Shown: in pieces, positions 360-6,548 of the stretch | How the letters are laid out: every line of letters begins with the position of its first letter | Position numbering within the stretch: position 1 is the stretch's first letter | NCBI GenBank assembly: GCA_021782525.1 | Contig: JAJXUY010000090.1 | Coordinates: forward strand, 1 to 6,548 | DNA length: 6,548 nt | Direction: 5' to 3' | Origin: Acidobacteriota bacterium | Lineage (GTDB): Bacteria; Acidobacteriota; Thermoanaerobaculia; Thermoanaerobaculales; Thermoanaerobaculaceae | Notes under the pieces: model-generated | Told to the model about the DNA's origin: nothing | The model's input: the letters and a program-made list of their open reading frames with translations, nothing else | Database searches by the model: none | Position numbers and translations under genes: made by a program

Positions 360-912
360 GGCCGACGCGCAGAAGGTCATCCTCCTCGTCGTGCTCCTGG
401 CGGGACTCGTCTGGGTGGTGGTCACGCGGCTCATGCCGGCGCTGGGGCCGGCTGCGGAGAGCGGCGGCGCCAAGGCGGTCGCGATCGGGCAGTACACGGT
501 CCCGGAACTGGGCTGGCAAGCCGCGCGGAAGCGTGTGGTCCCGACCCCGGCCGCGGGCCGCAACCTGTTCACGTTCGGTGCGCCGCCCACCCCGACGCCG
601 GACCGCCGTCCCACCGTGCCGCCGCCGCCCCCGCCGCCCCCACCGCCGACACCGACGCCGCCCGGGATCTACGTGAACGGAAAGTGGATCCTGCCGCCGC
701 CGCCGCCGTTCACCCTCAGTTACCTGGGGTGGCTCGGCCCGGACCGACTCCCGGTCGCGGTGTTCCGTGACGGTGACGACGTGCTGACGGTGCCCGTAGG
801 AGAGAGTGTGAAGCAGAAGTTCATCGTCCGAGAGGTCGGGCCGACCGGAGTGACGGTCGGCTTTGTCGGCTACCCTGCGGACGTGGTCAACAAGGTTCCG
901 TTAGCGAGGTGA
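349..912 (+). CDS. PilP/GspC-like inner-membrane protein with polyproline linker
   Basis: About 187 residues from GTG 349 (193 if GTG 331 is used). A short basic N-terminus is followed by one transmembrane segment (about residues 9-28), so the bulk should be periplasmic. A 'GRNLFTFG' motif (70-77) resembles the RNLF/RDPF-type motif found before the folded domain of PilP/GspC proteins. Next comes a Pro/Thr linker with ten consecutive prolines (91-100) and a second run of five (116-120). The C-terminal region (about 122-187) reads as a small beta domain, with 'YLGWLG', 'LPVAVFRDGDDVLTVPVGESV' split over strands, and 'FIVREVGPTGVTVGF'. This is the pattern of the PilP/GspC homology region that binds the N0 domain of the cognate secretin. 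It sits between a PilO-like gene (overlap 11 bp) and the secretin, the usual place of pilP. The assignment rests on topology, motif pattern and neighbours; PilP and GspC cannot be told apart here. Confidence 0.68.
   Translation: MKTRADAQKVILLVVLLAGLVWVVVTRLMPALGPAAESGGAKAVAIGQYTVPELGWQAARKRVVPTPAAGRNLFTFGAPPTPTPDRRPTVPPPPPPPPPPTPTPPGIYVNGKWILPPPPPFTLSYLGWLGPDRLPVAVFRDGDDVLTVPVGESVKQKFIVREVGPTGVTVGFVGYPADVVNKVPLAR
580..708 (+). repeat. Proline-codon-rich low-complexity tract
   Basis: CCN codons dominate here. Ten consecutive Pro codons lie at 619-648, flanked by PTPTP-type stretches, and five CCG codons lie at 694-708. The tract codes for the periplasmic linker between the membrane anchor and the C-terminal beta domain of the PilP/GspC-like protein. 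It is a simple-sequence region within a gene, not a mobile repeat. Confidence 0.8.
906..909 (+). promoter_or_regulatory. Shine-Dalgarno that favours the GTG start at 915 for the secretin
   Basis: GAGG at 906-909 has a 5-nt spacer to GTG 915. The other candidate, GTG 909, overlaps the upstream stop codon (GTGA) but would itself lie on this motif; the only other purine-rich element, AAGG at 892-895, is 13 nt away. The sequence therefore favours 915. The two starts differ by only two residues. Confidence 0.45.
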
Positions 913-914
913 GT

Positions 915-3398
915 GTGACGACGAGGCCCATCAGAGTCCCGATCGGTTTGCTCCTTGCGTTTGCCTTCCTGGGGTCGTGTGCCACTTACCGCTACGAGCG
1001 CCGGGCGAGCGACGCGGTGCAGACCCGGAACTGGGACGCGGCGGTGTACTTCTACCTGGAAGCGCTGGCGCGCGACCCCGGCAACATCCACTTCAAGATG
1101 GCGCTCGAGCGGGCGCGCCTGAAGGCGGGCGAGGAGCATTTCCGCCGGGGTATGCAGTTCAAGGAGGCCGGGGCGTTCGAGCGCGCCGCGTCGGAACTCG
1201 AGCTCGCCGTGCAGTTCGACCCCACCCACCAGTACGCTGCGGTCGAGCTGGAGAAGGTGCGCAAGGACATCCAGGTCCTCGACCAAGAGGGCGGTCCCGC
1301 CAAGCTCGAGGAGATCAAAAAGGCGGCCTCGGAGATGAAGGTCAAGCCGCCGATCCTCAATCCGGCGTCGAACGAACCGATGAGCCTGTCGTTCCCGAAC
1401 CCCACCAACGTCCGCGACATCTACAAGGCGATCGGCCAGGCGTTCGGGATCAACATCCTGTTCGACAACAAGATGCGCGATCAGAAGCTGTCCATCGAGC
1501 TGAAAAACGTCACCGCCCGCGAGGCGCTCGAGTCGGTGATGCAGGCCGCCGGCCAGTTCTACAAGGTGCTCGATCCCAAGACCGTGATCGTGGTCGACGA
1601 CACGCCGCAGAACCGCCGCGACTACGAGGACCTCGTGGTGAAGACGTTCTTCCTCTCCAACGCCGACGTCAAGGACGTCGCCAACATGCTGCGCGCCCTC
1701 ATCGACGCGCGGCGGATCGCGATCAACGAGCAGCTCAACGCGCTGGTGATCCGCGACACCGCCGACAAGGTCGCGATCGCCGAACGGCTGATCAACGCCA
1801 ACGACAAGGCAAAGGCCGAGGTGCTGGTCGACGTCGAGCTGATGCAGGTCGACACCAACAAGCTGCGCGACATCGGCATGTCGCTGTCGTCGCAGTCGTT
1901 CACGGCCAACTTCGACGCCACCAAGCTGGGCGGGAGCACGTCGACCTCGGCGATCCCGCTTACCCAGCTCGGCAACATCACGCGCTCGATGTGGAACATG
2001 ACCGTGCCGTCGGTGGTCCTCAACCTGATCAAGTCGGCCGGCGAGACCGAGACGCTCGCCCAGCCACAGCTGCGAATCACGGAGCGGGAGAAGGCGAGCC
2101 TGGTGATCGGACAGAAGGTGCCGATCCCCACCACGACGTTCAACACGACACAGACGATCGGCGGCAACATCGTCCCGATCACCGCGTTCAACTACCAGGA
2201 CGTGGGGATCAAGCTGGACATCGAGCCGAAGGTTCACCACAACAACGAGGTCACGCTGAAGCTCAAGGTCGAGGTCTCGGACCTCGGCACCCCGATCCAG
2301 GTCAGTGGCCAGCCGAACCAGTACCCGATCAACACCCGCAACATCGACACGACGATCCGGCTCAAGGACGGCGAAACGTCGCTGCTCGCGGGGTTGCTCA
2401 AGGAGACCACGGCGACGAGCCGGACCGGCCTGCCGTGGCTTTCCGACCTGCCGGTGGTCGGCCGCCTGTTCGGCGACACCTCGAAGCAGGTCACGCAGAC
2501 CGACCTCATCCTCACCTTGACGCCGCACATCATCCGCTACCCCGACATCACCGAGGAGGACCTCGCGCCGCTGTGGGTCGGGACCGAGAACCGGATCACG
2601 ATCTTCGGCAACTCGCCGAGGGTGCGCTCGGCGGTCGGTAGCAGCCCTCTCGGCGGGGATTCCAGCGGCGCCACGCCGGGGTTTGGGCCAGGCATCATAG
2701 GGCTCGGGGGGCAGGAGCGCACGGAGGCGACGGAGCCCGGAGAGGCGCCGCCTGGAGGATCGAACGAGGGGCAGGCGATGTCTCAGCCGGGCGTTCCTTC
2801 TCGCCCGCGCATCCGGCTGCCTGGTGCCGCTGCCACCCCGAACCCGGGCAACGCCTCGGTGCAGAGCACTTCTTCGGACGCGTCGTCGGCAACGCCGAGC
2901 ACTGCTAGCGGGACGACGACCACAGCGACTGTGATCGGAGACGCCGCGACGACCGTGACGGCGGGAACGGCCGCCGCGACGGCGCTTGCCGCTGGCGACG
3001 GCGGCCTGCCAACGCTCACGTTCTATCCCGCCAAGGCACCGATCGTGGTCGGCAGCGAGGGGGCGGTCCAGGTGGTCCTCGATCCCGGGACCGGCGGCGC
3101 CACCGGGCCGTTGCACCTCGCCTATGACCCGGCGCGGCTCGAGGTCACGCGCCTGGAGGGGGGCGTCATGCCGGGCAGCGACGGCCCGGTGCAGATCAAG
3201 GTGTCGCACACCCCCAACCTCGGCTGGATTACGGTGAACTGGGACGGGCGCCTGACCGGGAGCGGTACCCTGCTCGGGATCGCGGTGCGCCCGCGCGAGG
3301 TGGGCGAGCTGCCGATCATCTTCGCCGGGCCGGTCGGGGCGGTCGTCGGGCACAACGGAATGGTGGTGGCGGTCCCGGCCGCGGGAGCGGGCCAGTGA
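915..3398 (+). CDS. gspD: Lipoprotein secretin (GspD/PilQ family) with C-terminal cohesin-like domain
   Basis: About 827 residues. The outer-membrane ring channel of the secretion or pilus machine. The N-terminus has a basic stretch, a hydrophobic core and a lipobox FLGSC, with Cys22 as the predicted lipidated residue. Residues about 26-116 hold two TPR-like helical pairs ending in 'ALARDPGN' and 'AVQFDPTHQ'. An N0/STN domain follows (about 156-230, from MSLSFPNPTNVRDIY), then an N1 domain (about 232-298, with 'VVKTFFLSNADVKDVANML'). The secretin core spans about 302-546 and carries the family signature GLPWLSDLPVVGRLF (505-519) and TDLILTLTPHII near its end. A Gly/Ser/Thr/Ala/Pro-rich linker (about 560-697) leads to a beta-rich domain (698-827) resembling cohesin: 'VGSEGAVQVVLDP', 'LAYDPARLEV', 'GSGTLLGIAVRP'. 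The gene overlaps the stop of the PilP-like gene if GTG 909 is used, and the next gene by 4 bp. Secretin identity is secure; the cohesin-like call rests on pattern recognition. Confidence 0.93.
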   Translation: MTTRPIRVPIGLLLAFAFLGSCATYRYERRASDAVQTRNWDAAVYFYLEALARDPGNIHFKMALERARLKAGEEHFRRGMQFKEAGAFERAASELELAVQFDPTHQYAAVELEKVRKDIQVLDQEGGPAKLEEIKKAASEMKVKPPILNPASNEPMSLSFPNPTNVRDIYKAIGQAFGINILFDNKMRDQKLSIELKNVTAREALESVMQAAGQFYKVLDPKTVIVVDDTPQNRRDYEDLVVKTFFLSNADVKDVANMLRALIDARRIAINEQLNALVIRDTADKVAIAERLINANDKAKAEVLVDVELMQVDTNKLRDIGMSLSSQSFTANFDATKLGGSTSTSAIPLTQLGNITRSMWNMTVPSVVLNLIKSAGETETLAQPQLRITEREKASLVIGQKVPIPTTTFNTTQTIGGNIVPITAFNYQDVGIKLDIEPKVHHNNEVTLKLKVEVSDLGTPIQVSGQPNQYPINTRNIDTTIRLKDGETSLLAGLLKETTATSRTGLPWLSDLPVVGRLFGDTSKQVTQTDLILTLTPHIIRYPDITEEDLAPLWVGTENRITIFGNSPRVRSAVGSSPLGGDSSGATPGFGPGIIGLGGQERTEATEPGEAPPGGSNEGQAMSQPGVPSRPRIRLPGAAATPNPGNASVQSTSSDASSATPSTASGTTTTATVIGDAATTVTAGTAAATALAAGDGGLPTLTFYPAKAPIVVGSEGAVQVVLDPGTGGATGPLHLAYDPARLEVTRLEGGVMPGSDGPVQIKVSHTPNLGWITVNWDGRLTGSGTLLGIAVRPREVGELPIIFAGPVGAVVGHNGMVVAVPAAGAGQ
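3383..3387 (+). promoter_or_regulatory. Shine-Dalgarno of the first pseudopilin gene
   Basis: GGGAG lies 7 nt upstream of GTG 3395, inside the end of the secretin gene. It supports the GTG start that overlaps the secretin stop codon (GTGA) and suggests coupled translation. Confidence 0.55.
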
Positions 3399-3850
3399 GG
3401 CGCGCGAGCCGTGGTTTCACGGTCGCCGAGCTGGTGATGGTCACCGCGCTGGTGGCGATCCTGGCCTCGGTGGCGGTGCCGACGGCGCGCTTTACCATGA
3501 AGCGCGAGCGCGAGGCCGAGTTAAGGCTCGACCTGCGCCTGATGCGGAACGCGATCGACGACTACAAGCGGCTGGCGGACCAGGGGATGATCCAAGTCGA
3601 GGTGGGCACGGAGGGGTACCCGAAGACGCTCGAGGAGCTGGCCCAGGGCGTGCCGATCGTCGGGCAGCTGACGAAGCGGAAGTTCCTCCGCCGCATCCCG
3701 ATCGACCCGATGACCGGCAAGGCCGAGTGGGGACTGCGCTCGTACCAGGACGAGATGAACTCGGACTCCTGGGGCGGCCAGGACGTCTACGACGTCTATT
3801 CGCTCTCCGGGGGCACCGCGCTCGACGGTACCAAGTACAAGGACTGGTAG
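3395..3850 (+). CDS. Pseudopilin 1, GspG-like (prepilin-type N-terminal cleavage/methylation motif)
   Basis: 151 residues. A short basic leader of normal length (MRRASRG) precedes the prepilin peptidase site G7|F8, and F8-T-V-A-E12 gives the conserved Glu at mature position +5. A hydrophobic helix (about 8-30) follows, then an amphipathic helix rich in Arg and Glu. The globular part has the GspG-type segment YPKTLEELAQG (75-85), the 'RRIPIDPMTGK' block (99-109), and a C-terminus ending TALDGTKYKDW just before the stop. The mature protein should be processed by PilD/GspO-type peptidase, anchored in the inner membrane, and assembled into the short pseudopilus. GTG 3395 overlaps the secretin stop by 4 bp and has a good ribosome site. 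Its DPMTGK block and terminal DW are shared with the following genes, which suggests tandem duplication. Whether it is the major subunit or a minor one cannot be told. Confidence 0.88.
   Translation: MRRASRGFTVAELVMVTALVAILASVAVPTARFTMKREREAELRLDLRLMRNAIDDYKRLADQGMIQVEVGTEGYPKTLEELAQGVPIVGQLTKRKFLRRIPIDPMTGKAEWGLRSYQDEMNSDSWGGQDVYDVYSLSGGTALDGTKYKDW
3839..3843 (+). promoter_or_regulatory. Shine-Dalgarno that supports ATG 3853 of the second pseudopilin
   Basis: AAGGA lies 9 nt upstream of ATG 3853, inside the last codons of pseudopilin 1. It is the only good ribosome site before the second pseudopilin. It therefore implies that the repeat-containing region after 3853 is translated as an unusually long leader. 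Confidence 0.5.
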
Positions 3851-3852
3851 CG

Positions 3853-4383
3853 ATGAAGCAGGGCACAGAGCACAGGGCACAGGGCACAGTGCACCGGGCT
3901 CCGGAAAGGCGGGGCCGGTGGCCGGTGGCCGGTGGCCGGCCGAGACAGGGCTCTGGACTCCGAACCACGGGGTCTGGAACCCGGTCTTCGCACGGCTTCA
4001 CGCTCATCGAGCTGATCGTGGTGCTGGCGATCATCGGGATCCTGGCGGCGATCGCGGTGCCGGCGATGCGCACCGCGCCGGAGCGGGCGCGCGAGTCGGC
4101 GCTCAAGGAGGACCTGTTCACGCTGCGCTCCTGCCTCGATCAGTTCCACGCCGACCGCGACCGGTACCCGACCTCGCTCGACGAGCTCGTGAGCATGGGG
4201 TACCTGCGCAGCGTGCCGGTGGACCCGATCACGAAGTCGAAGGATACCTGGGTGCCGGTGTACGAGGAGGTGGCGCCGGAGGATCAGAGTAGCGACCAGC
4301 AGCAGAGCAGCCCGGGGATCATCGATGTGCACTCCGGCTCGCCGCAGACCGCCCTCGACGGCAGCAAATATGCCGACTGGTAG
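3853..4383 (+). CDS. Pseudopilin 2, GspG-like, with 48-residue repeat-derived leader
   Basis: 176 residues from ATG 3853, which starts 2 nt after the previous stop and has AAGGA upstream. The prepilin site is H47-G48|F49-TLIE53, with Glu at mature +5, followed by a canonical helix (about 49-70) ending in IAVPAM. The globular part has YPTSLDELVSMGYLRSVPVDP (105-125), a DPITKSK block, a Gln/Ser-rich loop (about 144-153) and the terminus TALDGSKYADW, closely matching pseudopilin 1. The odd feature is the leader: 48 residues, strongly basic with 11 Arg, Ser/Gly-rich, encoded largely by two 7-bp tandem arrays (3861-3895 and 3913-3940). Class III leaders are usually about 6-25 residues. The only nearer in-frame starts are GTG 3889 and GTG 3925. 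GTG 3925 would leave a 24-residue leader but has no good ribosome site. The role is a pseudopilus subunit, perhaps the major one given its canonical N-terminus. Confidence 0.87.
   Translation: MKQGTEHRAQGTVHRAPERRGRWPVAGGRPRQGSGLRTTGSGTRSSHGFTLIELIVVLAIIGILAAIAVPAMRTAPERARESALKEDLFTLRSCLDQFHADRDRYPTSLDELVSMGYLRSVPVDPITKSKDTWVPVYEEVAPEDQSSDQQQSSPGIIDVHSGSPQTALDGSKYADW
3861..3895 (+). repeat. Tandem 7-bp repeat array A (unit GGGCACA, 5 copies)
   Basis: Units are GGGCACA, GAGCACA, GGGCACA, GGGCACA and GTGCACC at 3861, 3868, 3875, 3882 and 3889. The array lies 8 bp inside the second pseudopilin if ATG 3853 is its start, so one unit more or less would shift the frame. Confidence 0.85.
3913..3940 (+). 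repeat. Tandem 7-bp repeat array B (unit GGCCGGT, 4 copies)
   Basis: Units start at 3913, 3920, 3927 and 3934; the last ends in C instead of T. A GTG occurs at each unit junction (3918, 3925, 3932), one in each of the three frames. The array lies in the leader-coding part of the second pseudopilin. Confidence 0.87.
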
Positions 4384-5041
4384 CAGAGACGTGGTCAGTG
4401 GTCCGTGGCCCGTGGCCCGAAGTGCCGAGCCCCGGGTATCTCCGCAGTGCCAGCGGCCGGCGACCCCGTCCACGGTCCACGGTCCACGGTCTACGGTCCA
4501 CGGCTCTGCGGCCGAGGCGGGGTTCACGCTGGCGGCCATGATGGTGATCATGGCGATCATGGCGATCTTCATGACCGTCGCGGTGGAGACGGCAAGTTTC
4601 CAGAAGAAGCGGGAGAAGGAGGAGGAGCTGATCTTCCGCGGCAACCAGGTCGTCGAGGGGATCCGCCTCTTCCGCGCCCGCTTCGGCCGCTTCCCCATCT
4701 CGCTCGCCGAGCTCGCCAAGGCCGACCCGCGGGTGCTGCGCAAGATCTGGAACGACCCGATGACGGGGAAGCCGGACTGGGTCCCGGTGTACCTCGGGGA
4801 GGAGGGCACCACGCTGCAGCGTCTGCCGGGGGGCCTGCAGCCGACGCCGCCCCCGACGCCGGGGCCGGGGACGCCAAAGGCGTCGGGTGCCCGCGGCGGT
4901 CCGATCATCGGCGTCCGCTCCTCCAGCTGTGCGGAGGCGGTCAAGCTCTACAACGGGCACACCCGCTACTGCGAGTGGAAGTTTTTCTACGATCCCAGCA
5001 AACTGAACCCCGCCGGCAGGCCGGCGGCACCGCAGCGCTGA
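4370..5041 (+). CDS. Pseudopilin 3, GspK-like N-terminus lacking Glu+5, with long repeat-derived leader
   Basis: 223 residues from ATG 4370, which overlaps pseudopilin 2 by 14 bp. GTG 4391 (44-residue leader) and GTG 4412 (37-residue leader) are alternatives; none has a strong ribosome site. The cleavage site is A-G51|F52-TLAA: position +5 is Ala, not the conserved Glu. The helix is Met-rich (MMVIMAIMAIF) and is followed by a charged helix (QKKREKEEEL). Then come FPISLAELAK (108-117) and 'NDPMTGKPDWVPVY' (128-141), shared with the other two pseudopilins. A Pro/Gly linker (about 152-172) precedes a C-terminal block GPIIGVRSSS with Cys187 and Cys201, which could form a disulphide, and 'EWKFFY'. 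Loss of Glu+5 is a known trait of GspK, the tip pseudopilin, but the small globular part here is not GspK-sized, so this is probably a lineage-specific minor subunit. The leader includes the heptapeptide repeat STVHGPR, encoded by array D. Confidence 0.82.
   Translation: MPTGSRDVVSGPWPVARSAEPRVSPQCQRPATPSTVHGPRSTVHGSAAEAGFTLAAMMVIMAIMAIFMTVAVETASFQKKREKEEELIFRGNQVVEGIRLFRARFGRFPISLAELAKADPRVLRKIWNDPMTGKPDWVPVYLGEEGTTLQRLPGGLQPTPPPTPGPGTPKASGARGGPIIGVRSSSCAEAVKLYNGHTRYCEWKFFYDPSKLNPAGRPAAPQR
4391..4418 (+). repeat. Tandem 7-bp repeat array C (unit GTGGYCM, 4 copies)
   Basis: Units GTGGTCA, GTGGTCC, GTGGCCC and GTGGCCC start at 4391, 4398, 4405 and 4412, just after the stop of pseudopilin 2. 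Each unit begins with GTG, so possible start codons appear in all three frames. Written in the phase CGTGGNC, it is the imperfect inverse of array D. Confidence 0.82.
4468..4502 (+). repeat. Tandem 7-bp repeat array D (unit GTCCACG, 5 copies)
   Basis: Units start at 4468, 4475, 4482, 4489 and 4496; only the fourth differs (GTCTACG). The array must be translated whichever standard start codon is used for pseudopilin 3, because no ATG, GTG or TTG lies in frame between it and the prepilin cleavage site. It yields the peptide pattern STVHGPR-STVHGS. Confidence 0.9.
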
Positions 5042-5096: not shown

Positions 5097-6335
5097 ATGG
5101 GAGCCCCGCCGACCACCTTCGTCCACGTGCTGCCGGGCGCGGCCACGGCGGCCGTGGGGGCGTGGGTTCGCAGCGGCTCCGCGCACGAGGACGCCGGCGA
5201 GGCCGGCATCACGCACCTGCTCGAGCACCTCCTGCTGCGGCGCTGCGGCGAGCGGAGCCCCGAGGCGATCGCCGAGCTGATCGATTCCCTCGGCGGCGCG
5301 GTGGACGCCTTCACCACCCACGAGGCGTGCGCCGTGACCGCCCACGTCCCTGCGGAGCGGTTCGCCGACGCGCTCGACCTCGTGCTCGACGCCGTGTTTC
5401 GCCCCCGCCTGCGCGCGGACGAGGTCGAGCTCGAGCGCAGCGTCGTCGCCGCCGAGTTCGACCTCGTCCAGGACTCGCCCGCGGAGGTGGTCGCCGAAAA
5501 CGCGCTCGCCGCCTGCTGGGGCGATCACCCGTTGGCGCGCCCCGTTCTCGGTCGCCGCGAGGTGGTCGAACGCCTGGGTGCGGGCGACCTCGAACGCTTC
5601 CACCGGGCGCGGTTCACGCCGGCCAACCTGCTGCTCGTCGCGGTCGGTCCGGTGGACGAGGCCCGCATCCGCCGGCAGGTCGCGAGCCTGGATTGCCCCG
5701 GCGGGCCGCCGCCGCCGCTCGCCGCGCCGCACTGGCGGCGAGGGGTGACCGTCGAGGAACGCGACGGGCTCGAGCAGGTCTACGCCAACCTCGTGCTCCC
5801 GGCGCTGGCGGCCGGCGATCCCGAGGCGTTCACTCTCGGGGTGCTGAACCAGCTTCTCGGCGGCGGCGCGTCGAGTCGACTGTTCCGCGAGCTGCGGGAC
5901 AGGCTGGGGCTGGTGTACGACGTGGGGAGCTCGCTGTTCGAGGCGGGAGCGGCGGGCGTGCTCGAGGTGACGTTCTCGGCGCCGGTGCGGCAGATCGGTG
6001 CGTGCTGGGACGCGGCGTTCGGGGTGCTCGGGGACGTGGCTACCGGGCGGATCAGCGACGCCGAGGTTCACCTGGCGCGGCAAGCGCTGGCGGCCAGCGT
6101 CGTGCTCGGGGCGGAGGGGACCGACGCGCTGCTCGAGGCGCACGCCGCCGAGCTCATGGCCCGCTCGCGCCCGTTCGACGCCGCCGCGGTCCGGCGCGAG
6201 CTGGAAGAGGTGACACCGGAGCGGGTGCGCGCGCTGGCGGCCAGGGTGGTGCACCTGGAAGCGCTCGCCGGCGCCGTGTGTGGCCCCGCGGCCGGCCTCC
6301 GCCTGCCCGAGGCCGTGTCGCGGAGGGTCGCGTGA
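5097..6335 (+). CDS. M16 family zinc metallopeptidase (M16B-like, processing-peptidase type)
   Basis: 412 residues, a usual length for single-chain M16B peptidases, which generally work as dimers. No signal peptide is visible, so it is probably cytoplasmic. The N-terminal half contains the inverted zinc motif H40-L-L-E43-H44, with E43 as catalytic base, and the distal ligand is likely E120 in 'RSVVAAEFDL', close to the 76-residue spacing of the family. 'FTTHEACAVTAHVP' (72-85) and 'HPLARPVLGRREVVERL' (144-160) are typical of the first domain. The second half keeps the core 'LNQLLGGGASSRLFRELRDRLGLVYDV' region (250-276), including the Arg/Tyr segment that contacts substrate. All three metal ligands are present, so it should be active. 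The N-terminus is a little short: the usual 'NG' strand before the first sheet is mostly missing. ATG 5097 is the only sensible start, and it lacks a ribosome site. The natural substrate is not known. Dut follows with a 4-bp overlap. Confidence 0.9.
   Translation: MGAPPTTFVHVLPGAATAAVGAWVRSGSAHEDAGEAGITHLLEHLLLRRCGERSPEAIAELIDSLGGAVDAFTTHEACAVTAHVPAERFADALDLVLDAVFRPRLRADEVELERSVVAAEFDLVQDSPAEVVAENALAACWGDHPLARPVLGRREVVERLGAGDLERFHRARFTPANLLLVAVGPVDEARIRRQVASLDCPGGPPPPLAAPHWRRGVTVEERDGLEQVYANLVLPALAAGDPEAFTLGVLNQLLGGGASSRLFRELRDRLGLVYDVGSSLFEAGAAGVLEVTFSAPVRQIGACWDAAFGVLGDVATGRISDAEVHLARQALAASVVLGAEGTDALLEAHAAELMARSRPFDAAAVRRELEEVTPERVRALAARVVHLEALAGAVCGPAAGLRLPEAVSRRVA
6322..6326 (+). promoter_or_regulatory. 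Shine-Dalgarno of dut
   Basis: GGAGG with a 5-nt spacer to GTG 6332, inside the end of the peptidase gene. It fixes the dut start at the GTGA overlap and suggests coupled translation. Confidence 0.65.
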
Positions 6336-6548
6336 GCGCGGACGTCGTCGTCGCCGTGCTCCGGCTGCCGCACGGGGAGGGGTTGCCGTTGCCCCGCTTC
6401 GCCACGGCCGGCGCGGCGGGGGCGGACGTGGCGGCCGCGGTGGAGTCGGAGCTCGTGCTCGCCCCGATGGAGCGCCGGGCGGTTCCGACCGGCCTCGTGC
6501 TTGCCGTGCCTCCAGGGTACGAGGTGCAGGTGCGGCCCCGCTCCGGCC
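6332..6548 (+). CDS. dut: dUTP diphosphatase (dUTPase), N-terminal part (3' truncated by window)
   Basis: The first 72 residues are present, about half of the usual 145-150. Trimeric dUTPases hydrolyse dUTP to dUMP and pyrophosphate, which keeps uracil out of DNA and supplies the dTMP precursor. Motif I is seen as AGAAGADVAA (26-35), where the family has A-G-x-D-L/V. The strand block 'RRAVPTGLVLAVPPGYEVQV' (48-67) leads into motif II, RPRSG (68-72), whose Ser and Arg contact the phosphates. The remaining motifs, including the uracil-binding hairpin, lie beyond the window. The start is GTG 6332, overlapping the peptidase stop (GTGA) with a GGAGG site. It is probably co-transcribed with the M16 peptidase. 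No functional link between the two is evident from the sequence. Confidence 0.93.
   Translation, partial: MSADVVVAVLRLPHGEGLPLPRFATAGAAGADVAAAVESELVLAPMERRAVPTGLVLAVPPGYEVQVRPRSG

Follow-up and report, generated by a model that had tools for sequence, protein, structure and literature searches.

Dispersed heptamer arrays within the predicted leaders of consecutive pseudopilin genes in Acidobacteriota

Dispersed tandem arrays of 7-bp units are already known from other phyla. In Xanthomonas (unit GGGAATC) and Nostoc (unit GGGGA(C/T)T), such arrays lie near ORF ends, and the accessible part of that report counts 70 cases of two nearby convergent sites in Xcc and 75 in Xac (PMC4692102). For Geobacter metallireducens, the accessible part of the source describes 49 elements with four tandem GGACCGG heptamers, within and between genes, and a class of 16 sites, 15 of them made up of five MTYCTGA units in tandem; the site classes are mostly paired, the elements were proposed to be regulatory RNA or sites of a global regulator, and that part presents no leader-peptide or inversion case (PMC2700814). 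In Beggiatoaceae, according to the available text, 7-bp direct repeats of TAACTGA lie mostly between genes, usually just upstream of start codons, and those within ORFs are mostly at protein ends; the unit is fixed and has forward stops in all frames, and that text gives one indirect repeat only (PMC4679880).

The locus described here, a stretch of 6,548 nucleotides referred to as the window, carries arrays of other heptamers between its pseudopilin genes. Together with those of its relatives (genomes and sequences with G and L numbers, respectively), these arrays resemble the Xanthomonas and Nostoc arrays, as far as the accessible text describes them, in being dispersed tandem heptamers with convergent pairs and with a preferred strand on either flank of ORFs. 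They differ in that several units occur per genome, often matched between arms, rather than one G-rich unit type per organism, and in that they lie inside apparently translated leaders and would not require G-quadruplex potential (PMC4692102). The window units (GGGCACA, GGCCGGT, CGTGGYC and GTCCACG) do not include GGGAATC, and no window array has the unit TAACTGA. The Beggiatoaceae unit was present in G016 (L114, 4976–5011; PMC4679880), the Candidatus Sulfomarinibacter genome from which L025 derives, and was paired there with an inverted CAGTGAT array. A search of titles and the beginnings of abstracts, with few subscription papers, returned no heptamer arrays that serve as translated leaders of prepilins or that lie inverted at the same site, and these two aspects would be what is new in the present case. 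Beyond the initial annotation of this DNA, the analysis added the inverted pairing, the in-place inversion, an embedded Shine–Dalgarno-like site and the precedents in other phyla. Rickettsia palindromic elements are repeats that reside in frame within protein-coding genes and are translated; they have a defined sequence, whereas the tandem-heptamer arms described here vary and their host site is a leader that is expected to be removed.

The window contained a secretin-like gene, three pseudopilin genes (PP1–PP3) and an M16 peptidase gene. The features relevant to the arrays were as follows (window positions).

909–3398: secretin-like gene
3395–3850, plus strand: PP1, GspG-like, with a GTG start at 3395 and a 7-residue, array-free leader
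3839–3843, plus strand: AAGGA, Shine–Dalgarno-like, in the last PP1 codons, 9 nt before the ATG at 3853
3853–3996, plus strand: predicted PP2 leader, 48 codons, with its ATG 2 nt downstream of the PP1 stop and Gly (3994–3996) before FTLIE
3859–3899, plus strand: array A, unit GGGCACA (TRF: CAGGGCA, 5.9 copies)
3913–3939, plus strand: array B, unit GGCCGGT (TRF: 3.9 copies)
3946–3990, plus strand: decayed GGACCCC-type array in the interval from B to the cleavage site of PP2 (by eye)
3997–4383, plus strand: mature part and stop of PP2, GspG-like, with a Pfam N_methyl match
4370–4522, plus strand: predicted PP3 leader, 51 codons from the ATG at 4370, overlapping the PP2 end, with Gly at 4520–4522
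4384–4508, no strand assigned: hairpin element of 125 bp with tips CAGAG/CTCTG and arms C and D, apparently inverted in place in L003
4390–4419, plus strand: array C, left arm, unit CGTGGYC (TRF: CGTGGCC, 4.3 copies)
4420–4467, plus strand: spacer of the element
4468–4503, plus strand: array D, right arm, unit GTCCACG, which is CGTGGAC on the other strand (TRF: 5.1 copies)
4523–5041, plus strand: mature part and stop of PP3, with a GspH-like N-terminus

TRF placed the four period-7 arrays between the pseudopilin genes where the initial annotation had them. None of 2000 dinucleotide shuffles of 3851–4519 held more than one such array (none in 1997, one in 3), and 300 shuffles of the whole window gave none in 293, one in 6 and two in 1. 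The arrays had been described as four different ones; their number and period stood, whereas the independence of C and D did not, since these two are the arms of one hairpin. C and D formed a convergent pair of nearby arrays, unlike A and B. Linker 1 (3851–3993) is pieced together from A, B and the decayed GGACCCC-type array, which at the same place in L001 was cleaner and read GGGCTCCGGGCCCCGGACCCCGG (by eye). The array-free PP1 leader and the lengths given earlier for the leaders of PP2 (about 48 residues) and PP3 (37–51 residues) agreed with the codon counts. PP3 had no Pfam N_methyl match, unlike PP2. Where a taxon was named, the listed homologs of PP2 and PP3 belonged to Acidobacteriota, often to Thermoanaerobaculales or similar groups.

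Reading frames were compared over linkers, defined, at the two junctions, as the DNA between the stop of the preceding gene and the Gly codon of the cleavage site. Usable linkers came from 42 of 46 sequences (L159, L163, L165 and L167 gave no usable plus-strand hits, and linker 1 of L016 and linker 2 of L029 were not delimitable); of 82 linkers, 16 were duplicates and were dropped, leaving 66 distinct ones. Loci L031–L080 (50 of 80) were used only in the locus array scan, in tblastn and in the second-repeat BLAST set. In-frame stops occurred in 1 of 2084 codons and off-frame stops in 91 of 4124 (Fisher p 1.9e-15), and for the 18 linkers whose period-7 array was strong the counts were 1 of 838 in-frame versus 29 of 1665 off-frame (p 1e-4); shared descent among the linkers means that these p values overstate the contrast. 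The sole in-frame stop lay within the left arm in linker 2 of L023, and all 33 distinct first linkers were free of in-frame stops. Linker 1 was 62–209 nt long and invariably 2 mod 3 (window and L001–L009), and linker 2 was 43–169 nt and invariably 1 mod 3 (window and L001–L008). Since units and lengths vary so much among relatives, it is implausible that the frame was kept by descent alone. The unit of L025, AATTAGG, contains TAG, and the copy that would place TAG in frame reads GAG instead (by eye).

Start codons gave a similar picture. Every one of the 33 distinct first linkers had an in-frame ATG at −1 to +8 nt from the end of the PP1 stop. A Shine–Dalgarno-like site, usually the AAGGA inside the PP1 codons for YKDW, stood 3–11 nt upstream of this start in 23 of the 33, compared with 3 of 25 internal alternatives (p 1e-5). 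For PP3, the in-frame starts ATG 4370, GTG 4391 and GTG 4412 would give leaders of 51, 44 and 37 residues. All of them lie upstream of array D, which would thus be translated from any standard start, as had been claimed, and would read STVHGPRSTVHG. The PP3 start is less certain, because ATG 4370 overlaps PP2 and has no Shine–Dalgarno-like site, and because the chosen start had such a site in only 12 of 33 second linkers. Taken together, the leaders appear to be translated, a conclusion that is well supported by frame and start conservation. Gene callers may misplace prepilin starts in this class.

We hypothesize, with a probability of roughly three in four, that dispersed heptamer hairpin elements colonised the leader-coding DNA and were tolerated there because the leader is cut off. 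The arrays would be dispersed elements of tandem heptamers, often with two opposed arms around a spacer that can form a hairpin, and within this branch of Acidobacteriota would lie mostly between genes. Because the start codon stands 2 nt after the upstream stop, leader-coding DNA would be the only spare room between the pseudopilin genes, and elements that settled there, in the sole non-essential DNA at these junctions, would be translated by initiation at this start codon. As 7 is coprime to 3, a stop-free 7-bp unit is open in all frames and gives the same heptapeptide in each, a stop-free and frame-indifferent property that may be the reason why 7-bp units suit leaders. Stop-free units were not clearly more frequent in the leaders than at other places; 69% of the possible heptamers contain no stop, and in the GC-rich genomes this holds for most units anyway. 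The leader, mostly hydrophilic, would remain cytoplasmic and be removed at G|F by the prepilin peptidase, and selection would mainly preserve the reading frame and keep out any strongly hydrophobic stretch. Recombination between the two opposed arms, or template switching from one to the other, could flip the element in place and keep the arms alike.

Arms C and D were inverse complements except at one unit position (CGTGGYC versus CGTGGAC on the other strand). An exact-seed search for inverted repeats over 3851–4519 returned 0 pairs; it misses this hairpin, since the two arms differ at about one position in each heptamer. When the operon of G003 was compared with that of the window, 4383–4509 matched on the strand opposite to the main match (82% identity over 127 bp, E 7.7e-29). 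Linker 2 of L003 scored 47 against the window in the direct and 135 in the reversed orientation, with the reversed alignment gapless over 125 bp. The spacer by itself (4420–4466 scored) gave 41 inverted and 15 direct, the maximum among 1000 shuffled spacers being 31. An in-place flip is a simpler account than a second insertion, because linker 2 measures 136 nt in both window and L003 and the flanks appear homologous. By these alignments, we read the element at 4384–4508 as inverted in place at the same junction in L003, a single case between species (L003 versus the window and L001). Reversing the element in silico in the window left PP3 open. The main units of C and D are stop-free on both strands, and the variant GTGGTCA carries a reverse-strand stop. 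At orthologous junctions elsewhere, where the comparison was confined to the 17 unaligned stretches separating blocks of alignment, 16 held no sequence alignable either way and 1 aligned directly. An all-against-all comparison of the distinct linkers (score at least 55) yielded no further same-junction inversion; its one inverted match joined the two linkers of L023 itself. MITEs have terminal inverted repeats with a target-site duplication; the present element has the tips CAGAG/CTCTG, and no target-site duplication was seen by eye around it, where no clean empty site aligned.

Inverted pairing was common among the arrays of relatives, yet not the rule. An inverted match of units (at least 6 of 7 positions) was found in 21 of 35 neighbouring array pairs and in 46 of 312 distant pairs (p 1.6e-8); 8 of the 21 came from one contig with near-palindromic units (L142) and 4 from pseudopilin linkers. 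Direct-orientation matches were present too, in 11 of the 35. A looser detector gave 25 inverted of 61 neighbouring pairs (G001 5/27, G004 1/4, G012 14/18, G016 5/12), the G001 set including L123 and L125, contigs chosen for matching the window operon. In the sampled relatives, arms near the left gene were G-rich in a ratio of 19:4 and those near the right gene C-rich in a ratio of 32:10, at median distances of 47 and 14 nt, respectively, from the gene ends (values that stand without a random-placement baseline). Array-bearing junctions were rarely divergent (3 of 72 versus 38 of 307, p 0.055; strand and junction tally without G014, in which 42% was called coding). The pair counts, with either detector, and the strand and junction tallies take in the pseudopilin-linker arrays of the sampled loci.

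This strand bias would also suit a regulatory role, in which mRNA structures at the junctions, REP-like, stabilise the upstream message or attenuate the downstream genes and translation is incidental. Several of the hairpins did fold better than shuffled sequences: the element at 4384–4508 as DNA (z −2.8, 1 of 200 shuffles as good), and linker 2 as RNA in the window (z −2.6), L001 (−3.3), L003 (−4.1) and L025 (−4.3). In linker 1 of L003 and both linkers of L005, L007, L009 and L010, however, z ranged from −0.6 to +1.9, and L011, L013 and L151 do without such elements. A scan of 3800–4560 found no terminator-like or promoter-like sites, and Rfam had no match near that interval; its only two matches, at other places in the window, were weak and fell far short of the family cut-off. 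Ribosomes would, moreover, open a hairpin that is apparently translated. We give a regulatory role a modest chance of being right and retain colonisation by tolerated elements as the preferred reading.

The colonisation reading presumes that the elements occur beyond the pseudopilin operon, as the initial annotation had proposed with its idea of a dispersed family of heptamer spacers that made their way into coding leaders, and the genomes of relatives bore this out. Patterns of three array-D units with at most 2 mismatches occurred 37 times in G001, 31 in G003 and 13 in G004, and array-A patterns 13 times in G001, 21 in G002, 11 in G004 and 7 in G005 (overlapping placements on both strands; the D pattern also covers the one-base variant unit of arm C). 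Any match was found in 7 of 16 genomes for the D pattern and 8 of 16 for the A pattern, and the reversed-pattern controls gave one match per search, in genomes other than those with the counts listed here. TRF detected 20 period-7 arrays in G004 (400 kb), 17 in G001 (93 kb), 23 in G012 (108 kb) and 27 in G016 (142 kb), counts that include operon loci with pseudopilin-linker arrays, versus 1, 0, 0 and 0 in block-shuffled copies of the same samples. A lag scan showed period 7 exceeding periods 4, 5, 8, 10, 11 and 13. Like the Xanthomonas-type arrays, those of G004 were mostly intergenic: 16 of 19 lag-7 segments in 400 kb lay between genes, though a simple gene finder called 88% coding, and one of the three others was the PP2 leader itself. 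Heptamer density was patchy across the class. Nested inverted arrays were seen by eye at L124 (10466–10690; outer GAGTGAA/TTCACTC, inner GGGAAGA/TCTTCCC) and were absent from the matching junction of G003 (L215).

At the pseudopilin junctions themselves, units vary among relatives (GGGCACA, GAATTCG, ATTTCGG), and unit length would differ by lineage. Both junctions of L028 (Holophagales; 9242–9438 and 9854–9984) carried inverted arrays of 8-bp units (GGAACGCT-like / CGCCTTCC), and a stretch of about 70 bp spanning the spacer was identical in the two. From this identity, the L028 element seems to have been copied together with its spacer. A more speculative view, which we consider quite unlikely to hold as stated, is that some general process in bacteria creates short arrays in inverted pairs where genes end, holding the length of the unit constant (7 bp for most of the lineages examined, 8 bp at the same two junctions in one Holophagales genome) and leaving its sequence nearly unconstrained; such a process would renew, match and flip the arms, these leaders would be invertible and a population could switch between two peptides. 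Unrelated units of equal length at the same junctions across lineages make the origin of bacterial heptamer arrays testable.

REP/RAYT elements have a conserved palindrome, form one sequence family with conserved units and are linked to a Y1 transposase. Spread of the hairpins by such REP-associated transposases (RAYTs), which would make them REP-like with repetitive arms, is decidedly unlikely. Y1_Tnp matched in 14 of 16 genomes and was missing from two, G011 and G013, and TRF found no period-7 array at their loci L011 and L013; genome size and completeness confound this comparison. The array-dense G016 and G014, on the other hand, had one Y1_Tnp match each, G006 had two with no period-7 array detected by TRF in its locus of 20 kb, and the array units vary, unlike those of REPs. 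A reverse-transcriptase link was considered as a separate candidate and rejected, RVT_1 being present in 8 of 16 genomes and missing from the array-rich G001, G002 and G016.

Both window leaders had the traits of class III signal peptides, namely a hydrophilic leader with Gly (codons at 3994 and 4520) before a hydrophobic stretch. The highest 15-residue hydropathy was −0.84 in linker 1 and −0.20 in linker 2, and in the leader of L012 it reached +1.13. With 48 and 37–51 residues, they exceed the range of 6–26 residues that the accessible part of a 2014 review gives for class III leaders (PMC4471445); very long leaders in Streptococcus sanguinis are mentioned in the accessible part of a 2023 review (PMC10191384). 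Among the homologs with a cleavage motif, leaders of more than 26 residues were common, in 91 of 115 for PP2 and 46 of 81 for PP3 (best 120 of 2179 and of 243 matches; the motif was not found in 5 and 39 of the 120, respectively), and the search queries carried leaders, which favours long-leader matches. Lag-7 identity was 0.179 in 92 PP2 leaders of at least 25 residues (shuffle maximum 0.120) and 0.141 in 46 PP3 leaders (shuffle maximum 0.124). Long leaders are not required, because L011, L013 and L151 show an array-free state with linkers of only 14–26 nt.

A second, unrelated dispersed repeat (peptide like RDSLPARGGGTGGRERPGGGWSGRGTPRQ) was present in linkers of four relatives (L002, L004, L005 and L006; for L004 and L006 at both junctions) and also elsewhere in G004. 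It is read through in the leaders and had one orientation throughout (first 70 of 89 BLAST rows):

L002, 5060–5157: second repeat
L004, 9414–9474 and 9893–9997: second repeat
L006, 9107–9204 and 9643–9711: second repeat

This finding supports the view that pseudopilin leaders may serve as a landing pad for dispersed repeats, and together with frame conservation it lends weight to the earlier suggestion that the leader tolerates insertions. The locus would then illustrate how, in nature, dispersed repeats from non-coding DNA can turn into protein sequence with no evident harm, at a site whose peptide is thrown away.

It is very doubtful that the heptapeptide repeats were selected for a function of the leader, such as chaperone binding or slower membrane insertion. 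The frequency of long leaders among homologs would fit such selection, as would the unit of array A, which was kept in the window, L001, L002, L004 and L005 and partly in L003, a retention across several species that simple neutral decay does not predict. Units and peptides nevertheless differ among relatives, another dispersed repeat can replace the arrays, and the leaders of L011, L013, L027 and L151 are just 6–9 residues long. That translation starts directly before the cleavage site and leaves the arrays untranslated can hardly be right, for although some linkers have in-frame starts near the site (an ATG at 9 residues in L009, a GTG at 5 in L012), none follows array D, and the frame and stop statistics over 66 linkers and the Shine–Dalgarno-like site at the upstream ATG speak against it.

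Three further observations concern the surrounding DNA. A dispersed repeat of about 190–310 bp at L123 (6045–6354) has many copies in G002 and G003, and one of its readings is similar to a portion of the peptide that the second leader repeat encodes. The C-terminal extension of the secretin-like gene (2990–3398), which we take to be cohesin-like from its look, had no cohesin match among the Pfam matches of that gene. Finally, a gene start at 6332–6548, presumably dUTPase-like, overlaps the 3′ end of the M16 peptidase gene.
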